NCBI GenBank assembly: GCA_017546845.1
Contig: JAFYRS010000172.1
Location: 1 to 33,486 of the forward strand
DNA length: 33,486 nucleotides
Reading direction: 5' to 3'
DNA from: Akkermansia sp.
Lineage (GTDB): Bacteria > Verrucomicrobiota > Verrucomicrobiia > Verrucomicrobiales > Akkermansiaceae
Under the pieces are notes generated by a model. It was given only the letters and a program-made list of their open reading frames with translations. It was not told the origin of the DNA and did no database searches. The position numbers were made by a program, and so were the translations under genes. This document shows, in pieces, positions 3,039 through 14,077 of this stretch. Each line of letters starts with the position of its first letter. Positions within the stretch are counted from its first letter, which is position 1.

Positions 3039-3500
3039 ATGCCTGATAGCGCCAAAGATAGTGAACATCCGAGGCCGGTACTGGAGGGTATCTGCGTTGG
3101 GGTGGCAGATGGTGATTCGCTGCTGCTGGAGTTGCCCGGTGGTGAGCGCGTGCGAGTGCGCCTGTTCGGTATTGACGCGCCGGAAAAAGACCAGGAGTTT
3201 GCCCTGCCTGCGCGCAAGAAACTGACCCGCCTGGTGTACGATAAGCCTATCCGTGTGGAGGTGCAGGATATCGACAAGTACGGACGCTACGTGGGCAAGG
3301 TCTATGCCGGGGCTCGCTATGTGAACCGCTTTATGCTCAAGGAAGGACTTGCATGGCACTACCGCCATTACGCGGCTGATGATGAATTGCTGGCAGCAGC
3401 AGAGGCTCGAGCCCGAGCGGCGGGCAGGGGGATATGGGCTTCTGATTCTCCCTGCCGCCCACGCAATTTCCGCAGCGAACACAGAAAGGAGGACTCATGA
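3039..3500 (+). CDS. Staphylococcal-nuclease-like (thermonuclease family) protein without signal peptide
   Basis: A 153-residue SNase-fold protein, expected to cleave DNA or RNA with calcium. The catalytic set is recognisable by alignment to the Staphylococcus enzyme: VADGDS (metal aspartates near 24/26), RLFGIDAPE (Arg41, Asp46, Glu49) and DKYGRYVG (Arg83). The C-terminal helix segment AGRGIW is also typical. Most bacterial members are secreted or membrane-anchored, but no signal peptide is visible from this ATG. It is either cytoplasmic or starts elsewhere. It begins one base after the preceding stop, and its own stop overlaps the next ATG (ATGA), so translational coupling across the cluster is likely. 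Confidence 0.88.
   Translation: MPDSAKDSEHPRPVLEGICVGVADGDSLLLELPGGERVRVRLFGIDAPEKDQEFALPARKKLTRLVYDKPIRVEVQDIDKYGRYVGKVYAGARYVNRFMLKEGLAWHYRHYAADDELLAAAEARARAAGRGIWASDSPCRPRNFRSEHRKEDS
3486..3492 (+). promoter_or_regulatory. Canonical Shine-Dalgarno for the lipoprotein at 3497
   Basis: AAGGAGG lies four bases before the ATG at 3497. It is worth noting because nearly all other genes in this window lack a recognisable Shine-Dalgarno. Confidence 0.75.
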
Positions 3501-4105
3501 AGCGTCTGGTTTTTACATGTCTGATGGCTTCATTGGCAAGCTGCCAGTTCCAGACGAGTACCCGCATTGCCGATTGGGGGCGCGTTCACAAGGGTATTGC
3601 CATCAAGGCTGATTCTCTCTTGCAGGACGAAGAACGCCGCCTGTATGCCAAAGGCAGAACCGCCACCTATAAACGCCGGGGATATCCATTATGGAAATGG
3701 GCTATGGAACAGCCCAGCCATGGGCGGCTTACCCAGGTGGAAGATGTTTTCGAGTCCACCGAATGCCTGGTTTCTCTCAACCTGTGGAGGCAAATGGCAT
3801 GGGAGGAGAATGTCTCTCTGGAAAACAAGCAACCGGCAGGAAAACTCCTCGGAGATTGGGTTGGTGACGCTGTATACCCGATGGGAGAGGATAAAGCAAC
3901 CGCTCATGCCTGGTGGGCCTACCCGCTGGCGGGCGCCAGCTTTGTGGCGGTGGATGTTCCTTGTACTGCTGTCAGCCTGGGGAGTTATGTTCTGCTGATA
4001 CCCGTGGCGGCTGTAGTGGCGGGAATTGATGAGCTGACGCACGATATCTGCCGCCAGATTGCTCCGGTACAGACGTCTCCTGTTGTGGAGACTACTCAGA
4101 AATAG
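3497..4105 (+). CDS. Predicted lipoprotein, paralog of the gene at 1627
   Basis: A 202-residue unknown with a lipoprotein signal (LASC, cysteine at residue 16). It shares with the 1627 protein the TRIADWGR block right after the lipidated cysteine and a HAWWAYPLAGAS...DVP block near residues 138-155. That block is followed by a hydrophobic stretch rich in alanine and valine that could be membrane-associated. The start is well supported by the strong Shine-Dalgarno and by the four-base overlap with the nuclease stop. I cannot assign a function; the conserved blocks suggest a small lineage-specific lipoprotein family. Confidence 0.82.
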   Translation: MKRLVFTCLMASLASCQFQTSTRIADWGRVHKGIAIKADSLLQDEERRLYAKGRTATYKRRGYPLWKWAMEQPSHGRLTQVEDVFESTECLVSLNLWRQMAWEENVSLENKQPAGKLLGDWVGDAVYPMGEDKATAHAWWAYPLAGASFVAVDVPCTAVSLGSYVLLIPVAAVVAGIDELTHDICRQIAPVQTSPVVETTQK

Positions 4106-4128: not shown

Positions 4129-4830
4129 TTAGTCTTTATCGGCGGCATCCACCTTTTTCTTGAAGCGCAGGCGGGCAGGGTGGTTCTGGAAGCGGGAATA
4201 GGCGTCACCGGGCAGTTCAATCCAGCATCCCTGGTATGAGGTTTCCACTCCGCCCCAGCCGGCTTTCACGAAATTCAGCTCTTTGCCTTTCTCCTTTCGG
4301 TTGAAATCATAGCTGATGCTGAGGAGTTCTTCTCCCTTTGCGTTTTGCAGACTGAGTTTGTCAATCTGCAAATCCGCCCAGGGCGGCATGATAATCATGG
4401 GTGCCGGTTCCAAATTCATCTGCCATCCGGTTTCTTCATGCCACATGGCAGAGGCCAGTTTTTCCGGCTTCATATCCTCGCGCCTGGGTGCCGGTTCTGC
4501 CTGCGCCTGGGAAAGCAGCTCTACCACTTCTCTGAATTCCTTTTTCGAAAGGGGAGAGGGGGAAAGCGGGTCGAGTTCTGCCCCCGTGCAGCAGCAATCT
4601 CCGCGTTCGCGCACCCATGAGGCTTTTTCTGCTTTGGCCAGCAGGTTTCTGAATGCTGCATAACTTTCCCTGTGAGTTTTGACTGCATTGGCATGAAGCT
4701 CGTTGATATGGGCGTCATTATAGTGGATTACTTCTGCCATCACCAGGTCATGCTGTTGCTGCTGCTGGTAGAAGCAAGAACTCAGACTCAGCATCAGTAA
4801 CAGAACAGAGATGTTGCGGAGGTTTTTCAT
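4129..4830 (-). CDS. Predicted lipoprotein of unknown function
   Basis: A 233-residue protein with a clear lipoprotein signal: MKNLRN, a leucine-rich core, then LSSC with the lipidated cysteine at residue 19. A run of glutamines follows immediately, probably a flexible linker. The mature part is charged, with an early helical segment and a lysine-rich end (RFKKKVDAADKD). There is no homology that I recognise and no relation to the two TRIAD lipoproteins. It converges with the gene at 3497, and it has its own consensus promoter 21 bases upstream. Confidence 0.8.
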   Translation of the reverse strand: MKNLRNISVLLLMLSLSSCFYQQQQQHDLVMAEVIHYNDAHINELHANAVKTHRESYAAFRNLLAKAEKASWVRERGDCCCTGAELDPLSPSPLSKKEFREVVELLSQAQAEPAPRREDMKPEKLASAMWHEETGWQMNLEPAPMIIMPPWADLQIDKLSLQNAKGEELLSISYDFNRKEKGKELNFVKAGWGGVETSYQGCWIELPGDAYSRFQNHPARLRFKKKVDAADKD

Positions 4831-4851
4831 GGTGTTTTTTTCAGCTGGCGC

Positions 4852-4880
4852 ATTCTAATGAGCTCATTCTGCTTTGTCAA
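4852..4880 (-). promoter_or_regulatory. Consensus promoter for the lipoprotein at 4129-4830
   Basis: Read on the minus strand: TTGACA (4880-4875), 17 bases, TAGAAT (4857-4852), then 21 bases to the ATG. The predicted leader is about 15 bases and has no Shine-Dalgarno. Confidence 0.75.
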
Positions 4881-4914
4881 GGTTTATTAGTTACACTCAC
4901 GGCGGTGGGAGCAG

Positions 4915-5082
4915 CGCGTATTGCCTCGAAATAAAATCGAACCCAAGGGGGTGGTTGCCTCAAAATTAATCGAACCTCAGGGTACTCATTTTGAGTGATA
5001 TGTGTATATGTAAGTGCCTGATTTTTGAGGCATCCAGCTTTTCTCGTGTCAGTTCGGTGACTGGATTTTTGAGGCAATGCGC
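4915..5082. repeat. Nested inverted repeats, possible MITE-like or insertion-sequence remnant
   Basis: Within the 329-base gap between 4831 and 5159, the motif TTGCCTCnAAA occurs four times. It is on the plus strand at 4921 and 4955 and on the minus strand at about 5020-5032 and 5063-5076. The outer copies are both flanked by GCG-rich bases (gcgcgtattgcctc versus gtgcgcattgcctc on the other strand), so they pair as terminal inverted repeats. The inner copies pair too. A short palindrome (ACTCAttTTGAGT-like) sits near 4984. I see no convincing coding sequence inside. Confidence 0.6.
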
Positions 5083-5117
5083 ACCCGGAGTAAGCTGCAA
5101 CATGCCGGAAAGAAACC

Positions 5118-5145
5118 TTGCGCCGGGAGGGGGCAGGGGTATAAT
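5118..5145 (+). promoter_or_regulatory. Promoter for hisC
   Basis: TTGCGC (5118-5123), 16 bases, perfect TATAAT (5140-5145), then 14 bases to the ATG at 5160. The predicted leader is about 8 bases. The weak -35 box is offset by the perfect -10. Confidence 0.65.
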
Positions 5146-5159
5146 GGGTTGCAAGAGAT

Positions 5160-6257
5160 ATGAGCATTATTCCCTTTGCTAATTCGAATGTGTATGAGCT
5201 GGTGGCCTACCAGCCCGGCAAACCGATTGAGGAGACGGCGCGCGAGCTGGGGCTGCGCCCGGAGGACATTGTGAAGCTGGCTTCCAATGAGAACTCCATG
5301 GGTCCCTCGCCCAGGGCGGTGGAGGCTATGCAGCAGGCGGCTGCCGGGGTGCATATTTACCCGGATGGCGCATCCTTTGCGCTGCGAAGCCGTGTGGCGG
5401 CGGAGCATGGGGTGGATTTTTCCAACACGGTGGTGGCCAATGGCAGCAGTGAGCTGATTGAGCTGCTGGGGCATGCCTTGCTGCGCCCCGGTACGCAGGT
5501 GATAGCCGCGGATTACGCCTTTACGCTGTACCCGATTGTGGCTAAACTGCTGGGGGCGGATTATGTATCCATCCCGAACCGCGATAAGTGGACGCACGAC
5601 CTGGATGCCATGCTGGCGGCTATCACCCCGCAGACCCGCCTGGTGTTCATTACGAACCCCACCAACCCAGTGGGTACCATGGTGAGCCAGGAGGAGCTGG
5701 AGACTTTTATTTCCCGCGTGCCGGAGCATGTGGTGGTGGCTATTGATGAGGCCTATATCGAATTTGCAGGACTGCCGACGGATAGCGTGAAATTGGTGAA
5801 GGAGGGCAGAAATGTGGTGGTGTTGCGCACATTCTCCAAGGCTTATGGGCTGGCTGGTGCCCGCTGTGGGTATGCCATTACCTCCCCGGAGATGGCGGAT
5901 TTGCTCAATAAGGCTCGTTCCCCATTCAATGTCAATTCTTTTGCGCAGGTGGGGGCTCTGGCTGCGCTCGATGATAAGGAGCACATTGCCCGCTCGGTGG
6001 AGATGGTTTGCCGCGGCCGCCGGCAGTATGTGGAGTTCTTCGAACAGCTGGGGCTGGAGTATGTGCCCAGCCATACCAATTTCATCCTTGTGAATGTAGG
6101 GAACGGGGTGGAGGTTTTCAGACAAGCTCTTGCCCAAGGTGTTATCATGCGCCCCATGGCGGCTTATGGCTTGCATGAATATATTCGCATTACTATTGGT
6201 AATGACCGCGAAAATGCCCGCTGCATCGAGGTTCTGAATGAAATTCTACAAAAATAG
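5160..6257 (+). CDS. hisC: Histidinol-phosphate aminotransferase
   Basis: A PLP-dependent fold-type I aminotransferase of 365 residues, the usual HisC length. It converts imidazole-acetol phosphate to histidinol phosphate in histidine synthesis. Visible motifs are LASNENSMGPS near residue 40, NPTNPVG near 167, DEAYIEF at 196-202 and FSKAYGLAGARCGY, with the PLP-binding lysine at residue 227. It is not next to other his genes here, so histidine genes are scattered or this enzyme also serves aromatic amino acids, as some HisC-like enzymes do. The start at 5160 is fixed by the close upstream promoter. Confidence 0.93.
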   Translation: MSIIPFANSNVYELVAYQPGKPIEETARELGLRPEDIVKLASNENSMGPSPRAVEAMQQAAAGVHIYPDGASFALRSRVAAEHGVDFSNTVVANGSSELIELLGHALLRPGTQVIAADYAFTLYPIVAKLLGADYVSIPNRDKWTHDLDAMLAAITPQTRLVFITNPTNPVGTMVSQEELETFISRVPEHVVVAIDEAYIEFAGLPTDSVKLVKEGRNVVVLRTFSKAYGLAGARCGYAITSPEMADLLNKARSPFNVNSFAQVGALAALDDKEHIARSVEMVCRGRRQYVEFFEQLGLEYVPSHTNFILVNVGNGVEVFRQALAQGVIMRPMAAYGLHEYIRITIGNDRENARCIEVLNEILQK

Positions 6258-11730: not shown

Positions 11731-14037
11731 TTAGAATTCAAGTTCGCGGTTGCCGATAACCTGCACCTCTTCGTGCAGGGTGATGCCTCGTTCCTTCTGC
11801 GCGGTGCGCAGCACGTGGTTAATCAGTTCGGTCACATCGGTGGCTTTTGCATCGCCCTTGTTGATGATGAAATTACCGTGCTTGGTGGAAATTTCTGCAC
11901 CGCCGATGCTGTAGCCCTTGAGACCGAGCTCATCAATCAACTTGCCAGCGGGAATTTCTGCCGGATTGCGGAAGGTGCAGCCTGCACTGGGTTCAATCGG
12001 CTGGCTGGCCTTGCGGCGGGCGCGGAATTCTTCCATCTTCTGCTCGATATCGGCTGTGTTGCCACGGGTGCCGCTGAATGTGGCCAGCATCACCATGTTG
12101 TGCTCAAAGTCCGGGATGCTGCGGTAGCGGGCGGGCTCCATGTCATGCTTGCACATGGTGATGATTTCGCCATCTTCATCCAGCGCGGTGGCGGAGACAA
12201 AGTTTTCCCACATTTCGCCGCCCATGCTGCCGGCGTTCATGCGCAGGCTGCCGCCCACGCAACCGGGGATGCCGTCCATCCACTCAAATCCGGCAATGCC
12301 GTGGCGGGCAGCAAAGGCTGCCAGTTTCTTGAGCTTGACGTTGGCGCCAGCCAGAATTGTGGTGGAATCCATCAGCTCCAGCTTGTCAAAGTCGCCGCCG
12401 CAGGGGTGCACCACCGCACCGCGGATGCCGCCGTCGCGCACGACAAGATTAGAACCACGCCCCACCACATGTACCGGGATGTTGTGGTCCTTGAAATAAT
12501 TGACCACTTCCTGCATGCATTCCAGCGTATCCGGCTCTACCCAGTACTGGGCAACGCCGCCTGTGCCAAGCGTGGTGTGTTTGCGCATCGGTTCATACAG
12601 GCGGGCAGGGAACTCGCGTCCGCATTCGGCCTGCATCTCGGTGAGCACACGCAAATCCTGCGCGATTTTTGCACCAGCCACATGCACGTTACCGGCACCC
12701 AGGGTCAGGAAGAGGTCGCCGGGGCGCAGCTGGTTGCCCACCACATAATGAGCCATGCTCATATCCGGCAGGAAAGTGGCATCTGCCTCCGGGGCATGTT
12801 CGTGCACGGCGTCTACAATGGTCTGACCGGAAATGCCGGGAATCGGCAGTTCACTGGCCGGGTAGACATCTGCTACAAAAAGCTTGTCTACATTCTGAAG
12901 AACCCGGCCGAAATCATCACGCAGCAGCTTGGTGCGTGTGTAGCGGTGCGGCTGGAAGAAGATGACCAGGCGTTCCGGGTTGAGACTCTGTGCGGTTTGC
13001 ACGGTGGCTGCAATTTCCGTTGGATGATGACCGTAGTCGTCCACGATGCGGTAATCGTAGCTCATGAACTTGGTTTCAAACCGGCGGCGGGCACCAGCGA
13101 ACGAGGCGAGACCTCGGGCAATGCTGGCGAAATCTGCTCCCATTTCCAGCGCTGCAGCTGTGGCTGCAAGCGAGTTGAGGACGTTGTGCTTGCCGGGAAT
13201 GCCGAGTTCGACACGGCCCAGTTTCTCACCCTTGTAGTTGATGGTGTAGAGGGTGCGGCCGCGTTTCACGGTTATGTTTGAGGCGGTGTAATCGGCATCT
13301 TCCCAGCCATAGGAAATGCTGTTCGGGTACTGGCTGCACACATCTGCTGCGCCGGCATCGCTCTTGCAGTAGAAAATCTTGCCCTTTGTCTGGCGGCAGA
13401 GCGTGTGGAACACCTCCTTGATATGGTCCAGGTCGCGGTAGAAGTCAAGGTGTTCTGCCTCCACGTTCAGCACAATGCTGTGCTCCGGCACGTAGTTGAC
13501 CAGTGTGCCGTCGGATTCATCACCCTCTGCCACCAGGTAGTCGCTGTCTGCGTTCCAGTGAGCATTGGCCCCCAGCACCGGGATTTCTGCGCCCACGTAG
13601 TGGCAGGGGCGCAGCCGTGCTTCGCGCAGCAGGTGTGCTGTCAGTGCAGAGGTAGTGGTTTTGCCATGAGTGCCGGCAACTACCACGCCTTTCTTGTTGT
13701 TCAGAATGGCAGCCAGACACTCTGCGCGGCGCATGCACAGACTGCCCAGTTTGCGGGCTGCAGCCAGGGCCACGTTATCTTCGCGAATGGCGCTGGAATA
13801 AATGACAATTTCTGCATCTGCCACGGCTTCTGCTGTGTGCGGGCACGCAAACGCGAGACCGCTCTGCTGCAGGCGCTCGGTTTCCTCACTGGTGACGCGG
13901 TCGCAGCCGCTCACTCTGTGCCCCATTTCCAGGAGCATGCGTGCAATGCCGCTCATGCCGGCACCGGCCACGCCGATAAGATGAATACGCACCGGGTTTT
14001 CCCGGTCCAAAAGTCGTTTGCGCAACTGGTCAATCAT
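11731..14037 (-). CDS. murC/murB: MurC-MurB fusion: UDP-N-acetylmuramate--alanine ligase / UDP-N-acetylenolpyruvoylglucosamine reductase
   Basis: One 768-residue protein joins two consecutive cytoplasmic peptidoglycan steps. Residues 1-460 are MurC: GVAGAGMSG near 22, ATP loop GTHGKTTTS at 122-130, EAEHLDF near 193 and DDYGHHPTE near 333. Residues 475-768 are MurB: FAD-binding GRGSNLVV at 526-533, GIPGCVGG at 589-596, and SAGCTFRNP at 684-692. The usual proton-donating serine of MurB is Cys687 here. The final HEEV supplies the glutamate. The ATG at 14037 is chosen over one at 14073 because a TATAAT box lies between them. First gene of murCB-ddl-ftsQ. MurB/MurC fusions have been described in Verrucomicrobium. 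Confidence 0.95.
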   Translation of the reverse strand: MIDQLRKRLLDRENPVRIHLIGVAGAGMSGIARMLLEMGHRVSGCDRVTSEETERLQQSGLAFACPHTAEAVADAEIVIYSSAIREDNVALAAARKLGSLCMRRAECLAAILNNKKGVVVAGTHGKTTTSALTAHLLREARLRPCHYVGAEIPVLGANAHWNADSDYLVAEGDESDGTLVNYVPEHSIVLNVEAEHLDFYRDLDHIKEVFHTLCRQTKGKIFYCKSDAGAADVCSQYPNSISYGWEDADYTASNITVKRGRTLYTINYKGEKLGRVELGIPGKHNVLNSLAATAAALEMGADFASIARGLASFAGARRRFETKFMSYDYRIVDDYGHHPTEIAATVQTAQSLNPERLVIFFQPHRYTRTKLLRDDFGRVLQNVDKLFVADVYPASELPIPGISGQTIVDAVHEHAPEADATFLPDMSMAHYVVGNQLRPGDLFLTLGAGNVHVAGAKIAQDLRVLTEMQAECGREFPARLYEPMRKHTTLGTGGVAQYWVEPDTLECMQEVVNYFKDHNIPVHVVGRGSNLVVRDGGIRGAVVHPCGGDFDKLELMDSTTILAGANVKLKKLAAFAARHGIAGFEWMDGIPGCVGGSLRMNAGSMGGEMWENFVSATALDEDGEIITMCKHDMEPARYRSIPDFEHNMVMLATFSGTRGNTADIEQKMEEFRARRKASQPIEPSAGCTFRNPAEIPAGKLIDELGLKGYSIGGAEISTKHGNFIINKGDAKATDVTELINHVLRTAQKERGITLHEEVQVIGNRELEF

Positions 14038-14049
14038 AGCAGTACGTCC

Positions 14050-14077
14050 ATTATATACGAAACCGCCCCACAAGCAA
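14050..14077 (-). promoter_or_regulatory. Promoter of the murCB-ddl-ftsQ operon
   Basis: Minus strand: TTGCTT (14077-14072), 16 bases, perfect TATAAT (14055-14050), 12 bases to the ATG at 14037. The predicted leader is about 6 bases, and the boxes lie inside the longer reading frame that begins at 14073, which rules that start out. Confidence 0.7.

Follow-up and report, generated by a model that had tools for sequence, protein, structure and literature searches.

The IS481 family of insertion sequences (IS), modelled in NCBIfam as NF033577, has TG...CA tips and target duplications of mostly 6 bp, as given in the part of its description drawn on here (PMC10045372, 2023). A group of IS from related Akkermansia genomes, whose ends recur in the locus described below, is similar to IS481 in having a single-frame rve/DDE transposase and inverted terminal repeats, and one copy (L142; genomes, contigs and loci carry our own G, C and L handles) has a 6 bp target duplication. 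However, these IS differ from IS481 in their CG...CG tips, mostly 4 bp duplications and a subterminal repeat in most ends. Scored against NF033577, which has a curated cut-off of 224 bits, the transposase of L036 reached 44.6 bits (E 1.3e-11) and two further proteins 39 and 43 bits, the third protein coming from a more distant IS (L043). By model score the group would be placed as rve/DDE elements nearest to IS481, below its cut-off.

The ISAjo2 group of the IS1202 family, again from part of its description, comprises IS of ~1.5 kb with 5'-TGT/ACA-3' tips, one large DDE transposase of 441–457 aa and, close to either end, an additional repeat bound by the transposase (PMC10132070). The Akkermansia IS resemble it in size, in the single DDE transposase and in the extra end repeat, but have CG tips and a transposase of 384–404 aa; they are set apart by the description of IS1202 rather than by sequence. 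Membership of IS1202, for which TGT...ACA tips and duplications of at least 5 bp are expected, is not supported by the CG...CG tips and duplications of 4, 4, 4 and 6 bp. IS21 elements carry several end repeats at each terminus, and the repeated boxes at the ends initially pointed to this family. It was dropped, as full IS copies hold a single rve frame and no second gene lies between the ends of L036 or L037 that could complete an IstA and IstB pair; Mu-transpos_C_2 (PF22483) had no match in the genome studied. A search limited to publications returned no recognised listing of these IS in Akkermansia. Our study delimits a short Akkermansia IS group with CG tips, two boxes in most ends and mostly 4 bp duplications.

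The parent insertion sequences

The window, meaning the whole 33,486 bp stretch of Akkermansia DNA that was analysed, contains TTGCCTCnAAA boxes. In this IS group, whose members measure ~1.4–1.45 kb in related Akkermansia genomes, the boxes form the terminal and subterminal repeats. Contigs bearing its transposase are from Akkermansia sp., mostly ruminant-gut MAGs. Tips were picked by eye from the conserved sequence, and nine full-length copies were delimited in this way: relatives of the right half of our element at 1,452–1,453 bp (L036, L141 and L142), and further copies of 1,403 bp (L037, L143 and L144), 1,379–1,381 bp (L145 and L092) and 1,649 bp (L155). All nine have CG at the start and at the end and TGCCTC boxes at the tips, with a second, inner box in most ends. 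One transposase frame fills the space from tip to tip in L036 and L037. The L036 product (384 aa) scored 34 bits against rve (PF00665), above the cut-off of 32.6, and that of L037 scored 31.2, slightly under it; the type-A transposase had no match among PDB sequences at E up to 1. A transposase with matching ends, as envisaged by the original prediction, is present in the IS of related genomes, while a search of the window's own genome (G000; 2.03 Mb, 185 contigs, 82% complete) yielded no transposase of the group.

Exact target duplications were seen in four of the nine full-length copies, at 4 bp in L037 (CAGG), L141 (TATC) and L143 (CCAA) and at 6 bp (GAGAGG) in L142, a type-A copy at 391–1842 of G058:C45. 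The difference in length within one group may be real or may be chance. No duplication of at least 4 bp was found in the other five (L036, L144, L145, L155 and L092), nor in two shortened copies, L097 (1,106 bp) and L105 (233 bp).

Two end types are relevant to the window. In the full-length type-A IS (L036 and L141), either end is of A type. For type B, a 5' and a 3' end were found in each of G007 and G022, both B-type, and the type-B 5' ends of G018 and G061 are B-type as well, with no complete type-B IS recovered on one contig. The type-B transposase was seen in part, as its first 62 aa and its tail, and the former is weakly similar to the type-A protein (15/45 identical, E 2e-05). Pfam and NCBIfam searches with truncated N-terminal transposase pieces gave nothing useful.

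Decayed copies of the group are common in the genus, as indicated by a 233 bp element in G018 and by five solitary type-B 3' tips. The former, in a near relative whose HisC is 96% identical, is an internally deleted type-B element in which the transposase start is joined to the region behind the gene end. The solitary tips, of ~30–36 bp without IS interior, lie at L051 1776, L093 1445, L094 1495, L095 1494 and L109 187; those of L094 and L095 share the same sequence across the 60 bases shown, and that of L109 is 187 bases from its contig start. At L092 1630–1760 (G076:C68), one IS end of the group directly abuts interior sequence of a type-A 5' end, which looks like the insertion of one IS into another. 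Many of these assemblies break at this IS group, with IS ends located where contigs stop.

A probable joint of two IS ends in 165 bp

The original prediction had described four TTGCCTCnAAA boxes in two nested inverted pairs, within a gene-free stretch and without other copies in the window, and this description was borne out (Table 1). Three boxes are exact and one has a single mismatch. The outer pair (4916–4931/5067–5082) is 88% complementary over 16 nt and the inner pair (4952–4965/5023–5036) 93% over 14 nt. The three exact boxes are the only ones in the window, compared with a mean of 0.12 and a maximum of 2 in 100 shuffles, of which 0/100 reached three or more. No credible gene was found in 4915–5082; the open reading frames that overlap it are mechanical, the largest being antisense to hisC. 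Comparison with related IS copies refined the edges to 4917–5081 (165 bp), beginning CGTATTGCC and finishing GGCAATGCG. A promoter scan found no consensus promoter inside these limits, and a search of a plasmid collection gave no match.

Table 1. Features of the locus and their positions in the window
Feature	Position	Strand	Remarks
Lipoprotein-like gene, 233 aa	4132–4830	-	No Pfam family; 93% identical orthologue in G018
Left flank, lipoprotein-like gene promoter TTGACA-17-TAGAAT (4880–4852)	4849–4885	-	G018 homology stops at 4885
Type-B IS 3' end	4917–4985	-	Outer tip 4917; terminal box 4921–4931, subterminal box 4955–4965
Box	4921–4931	+	TTGCCTCGAAA, exact
Box	4955–4965	+	TTGCCTCAAAA, exact
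Junction of halves	4983–4985		3 bp microhomology TAC
Start and second codon (ATG AGT) of lost type-A transposase	4984–4989	-	Same as L036
Type-A IS 5' end	4986–5081	-	Outer tip 5081; subterminal box 5023–5033, terminal box 5067–5077; 22 bp deletion
Box	5023–5033	-	ATGCCTCAAAA, one mismatch
Box	5067–5077	-	TTGCCTCAAAA, exact
Right flank, hisC promoter region	5093–5160	+	Similar in relatives without such an element there
hisC-like aminotransferase gene	5160–6257	+	Aminotran_1_2, E 3e-60

The element was found to be a chimera of 68 bp from a type-B 3' end on the left and 94 bp from a type-A 5' end on the right. This was established by aligning window 4917–4984 and the reverse complement of 4988–5081 with 16 IS ends picked from the loci compared. 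The left part matched best on the type-B 3' ends of G007 (63/68) and G022 (62/68), followed by a C-type 3' end (53/68) and the type-B 3' end of G018 (52/68), while type-A 3' ends (G064, G075 and G023) gave 48–51 matches over 74–75 columns. The right part matched best on the type-A 5' ends of G075 and G007, with 90 matches in 116 columns, 22 of which are a single gap, so that 90 of the 94 bases are identical; the next-best end type reached 75/119 columns. On this alignment each half stands well clear of the remaining end types compared. The 22 bp gap is bordered by CTGACAC repeats, which would fit a deletion by slippage. Across the joint the sequence is GGGTAC|TCAT in the window, GGATAC|ACAG in the type-B 3' end and TTTAC|TCAT in the reversed type-A 5' end, with TAC, common to all three, as the microhomology. 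The type-A side ends just beyond the transposase start, after ATG AGT, and ATGAGT also begins the transposase of L036 and its relatives.

The element is present once in the window's genome, where a mobile miniature element would be expected in multiple copies. Among 39 relatives, 13 match it, all from the same genus (one of 12 genera), and a wider query (4830–5160) is matched in 40 of 76 genus genomes, some through the hisC flank only. Candidates were scored as the best up to 20 per genome for the 39 relatives and the best up to nine for the 76 genus genomes. Among the matches listed in both sets, the window's own excepted, none spans both halves; those inside the element cover either the left part (ending by 4992) or the right part (from 4983 on). 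Another joined copy could exist beyond the matches listed.

Taken together, we consider it highly probable that 4917–5081 is a dead, single-copy scar, in which the 3' end of a type-B IS and the 5' end of a related type-A IS became joined at their inner sides with the loss of both transposase genes. Both termini are homologous to the ends of transposase-bearing IS, and the nested inverted repeats arise because two double-boxed IS ends face each other. The terminal and subterminal TTGCCTCAAAA boxes, present in most ends of the group, are presumed to be transposase binding sites. Two IS that had inserted separately would have been joined, probably at the 3 bp microhomology, by illegitimate deletion or by a rearrangement of another kind. 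As such the scar is ordinary genome debris, an IS remnant, and represents neither a new element nor a MITE family; for annotation, a conspicuous structure is explained.

Probable origin of the scar, and its locus

The original prediction, the remains of an insertion sequence, was correct in kind, as both halves match IS ends, but not in number, as two IS are involved rather than one. A single unsampled IS with natural B and A ends and a deleted middle is an unlikely source. Such an IS may be carried by the window's own species, of which the assembly is incomplete, and type-B IS were nowhere seen complete within a single contig; yet full-length type-A IS (L036 and L141) are A-type at both ends, and the type-B 5' ends of G007, G022, G018 and G061 are B-type. 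The alternative proposal of a miniature inverted-repeat element did not hold up. Like MITEs and internally deleted IS derivatives, the element is short, non-coding and bounded by inverted IS ends. Its outer tips are intact and pair over 16 nt at 88%, while the inner end sequence comes from two IS types; a single transposase could still bind a 3' end and a 5' end of different types. We nevertheless regard it as decidedly unlikely that one hybrid IS was internally deleted and then mobilised in trans by its own transposase, given the single copy, the lack of listed matches across both halves in 76 genomes, the two IS types of the halves and the apparently mismatched ends without a target duplication. 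At the window AGCG stands on the left and CACC on the right, with no exact repeat of 2–9 bp, although this is weak evidence since five of the nine full-length copies and both shortened copies also have none of at least 4 bp. The MITE definition suits the 233 bp type-B element of the near relative G018 better than the window copy.

It is very unlikely that the joint was created by the assembler from two IS copies. In many of these fragmented assemblies contigs do terminate in IS ends, but the joint shares 3 bp only, the element occurs once in the genome, and it carries substitutions and a 22 bp deletion relative to the copies compared. A structured RNA or a regulatory element kept for hisC or the lipoprotein-like gene is the explanation to which we give almost no credence. 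The hairpin suggested by the original prediction is supported by its fold energy (-61.3 kcal/mol, z -4.1, with 0/200 shuffles equally good), and the element sits between two divergently transcribed genes. However, an Rfam search of the whole window matched no family, and an RNA is not needed, as IS ends explain the sequence; the fold is strong because the ends are inverted, and any nested inverted repeat would fold so. The element is absent upstream of hisC in G065, G049, G012, G062, G010 and G005, and the G018 lipoprotein-like gene retains its promoter without it. No role for the element is supported by the analysis; the hisC upstream region and the lipoprotein-like gene promoter persist in relatives without it.

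The scar occupies an adjacency that is not conserved. A hisC match was found in all 76 genus genomes, whereas a homologue of the lipoprotein-like gene (E <= 1e-10; the product is named from the apparent character of its N-terminus) was found in nine other genomes and beside hisC in none of them, the two genes being on different contigs in eight and ~250 kb apart in G064. On the hisC side, similarity begins at 5093 in G065 and at 5101–5102 in G005, G049, G012, G062 and G010, and the upstream sequences of these relatives differ from one another in most cases. In G018 the contig stops at 5118 on the hisC side, and the lipoprotein-like gene adjoins not hisC but, beyond the homology that stops at 4885, a gene that we take from its sequence to encode a TrkH-type potassium transporter. 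The window genome's own TrkH-type gene (contig C122) sits behind a small basic-protein frame with no IS end visible upstream, so that a reciprocal joint was not found there. A clean empty site was not found in the relatives, as no genome keeps the sequences upstream of hisC and of the lipoprotein-like gene together.

Since relatives do not have the two bordering genes side by side, the scar may mark a rearrangement junction. The non-conserved adjacency is only suggestive, since gene order varies widely in these genomes and coincidence is possible. Should it indeed mark one, scars of this kind could be of use in tracing gene-order change in the genus. It is distinctly improbable that a transposase of the group cross-reacted, pairing an A end with the B end of another IS and moving or rearranging the segment between, so that hybrid joints would reshape gene order.

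Two further observations were made in the window. The 780 aa frame at 11731–14073 (-) has three Mur_ligase domains, whose position suggests the MurC type, and after them MurB (FAD_binding_4 and MurB_C), and its product is predicted to be a MurC-MurB-like fusion. Two small lipoprotein-like proteins without a Pfam family, encoded at 1621–2235 and 3497–4102 (+), form a related pair (29% identity, E 2e-17) and flank an SNase-domain gene (3039–3500) on either side.
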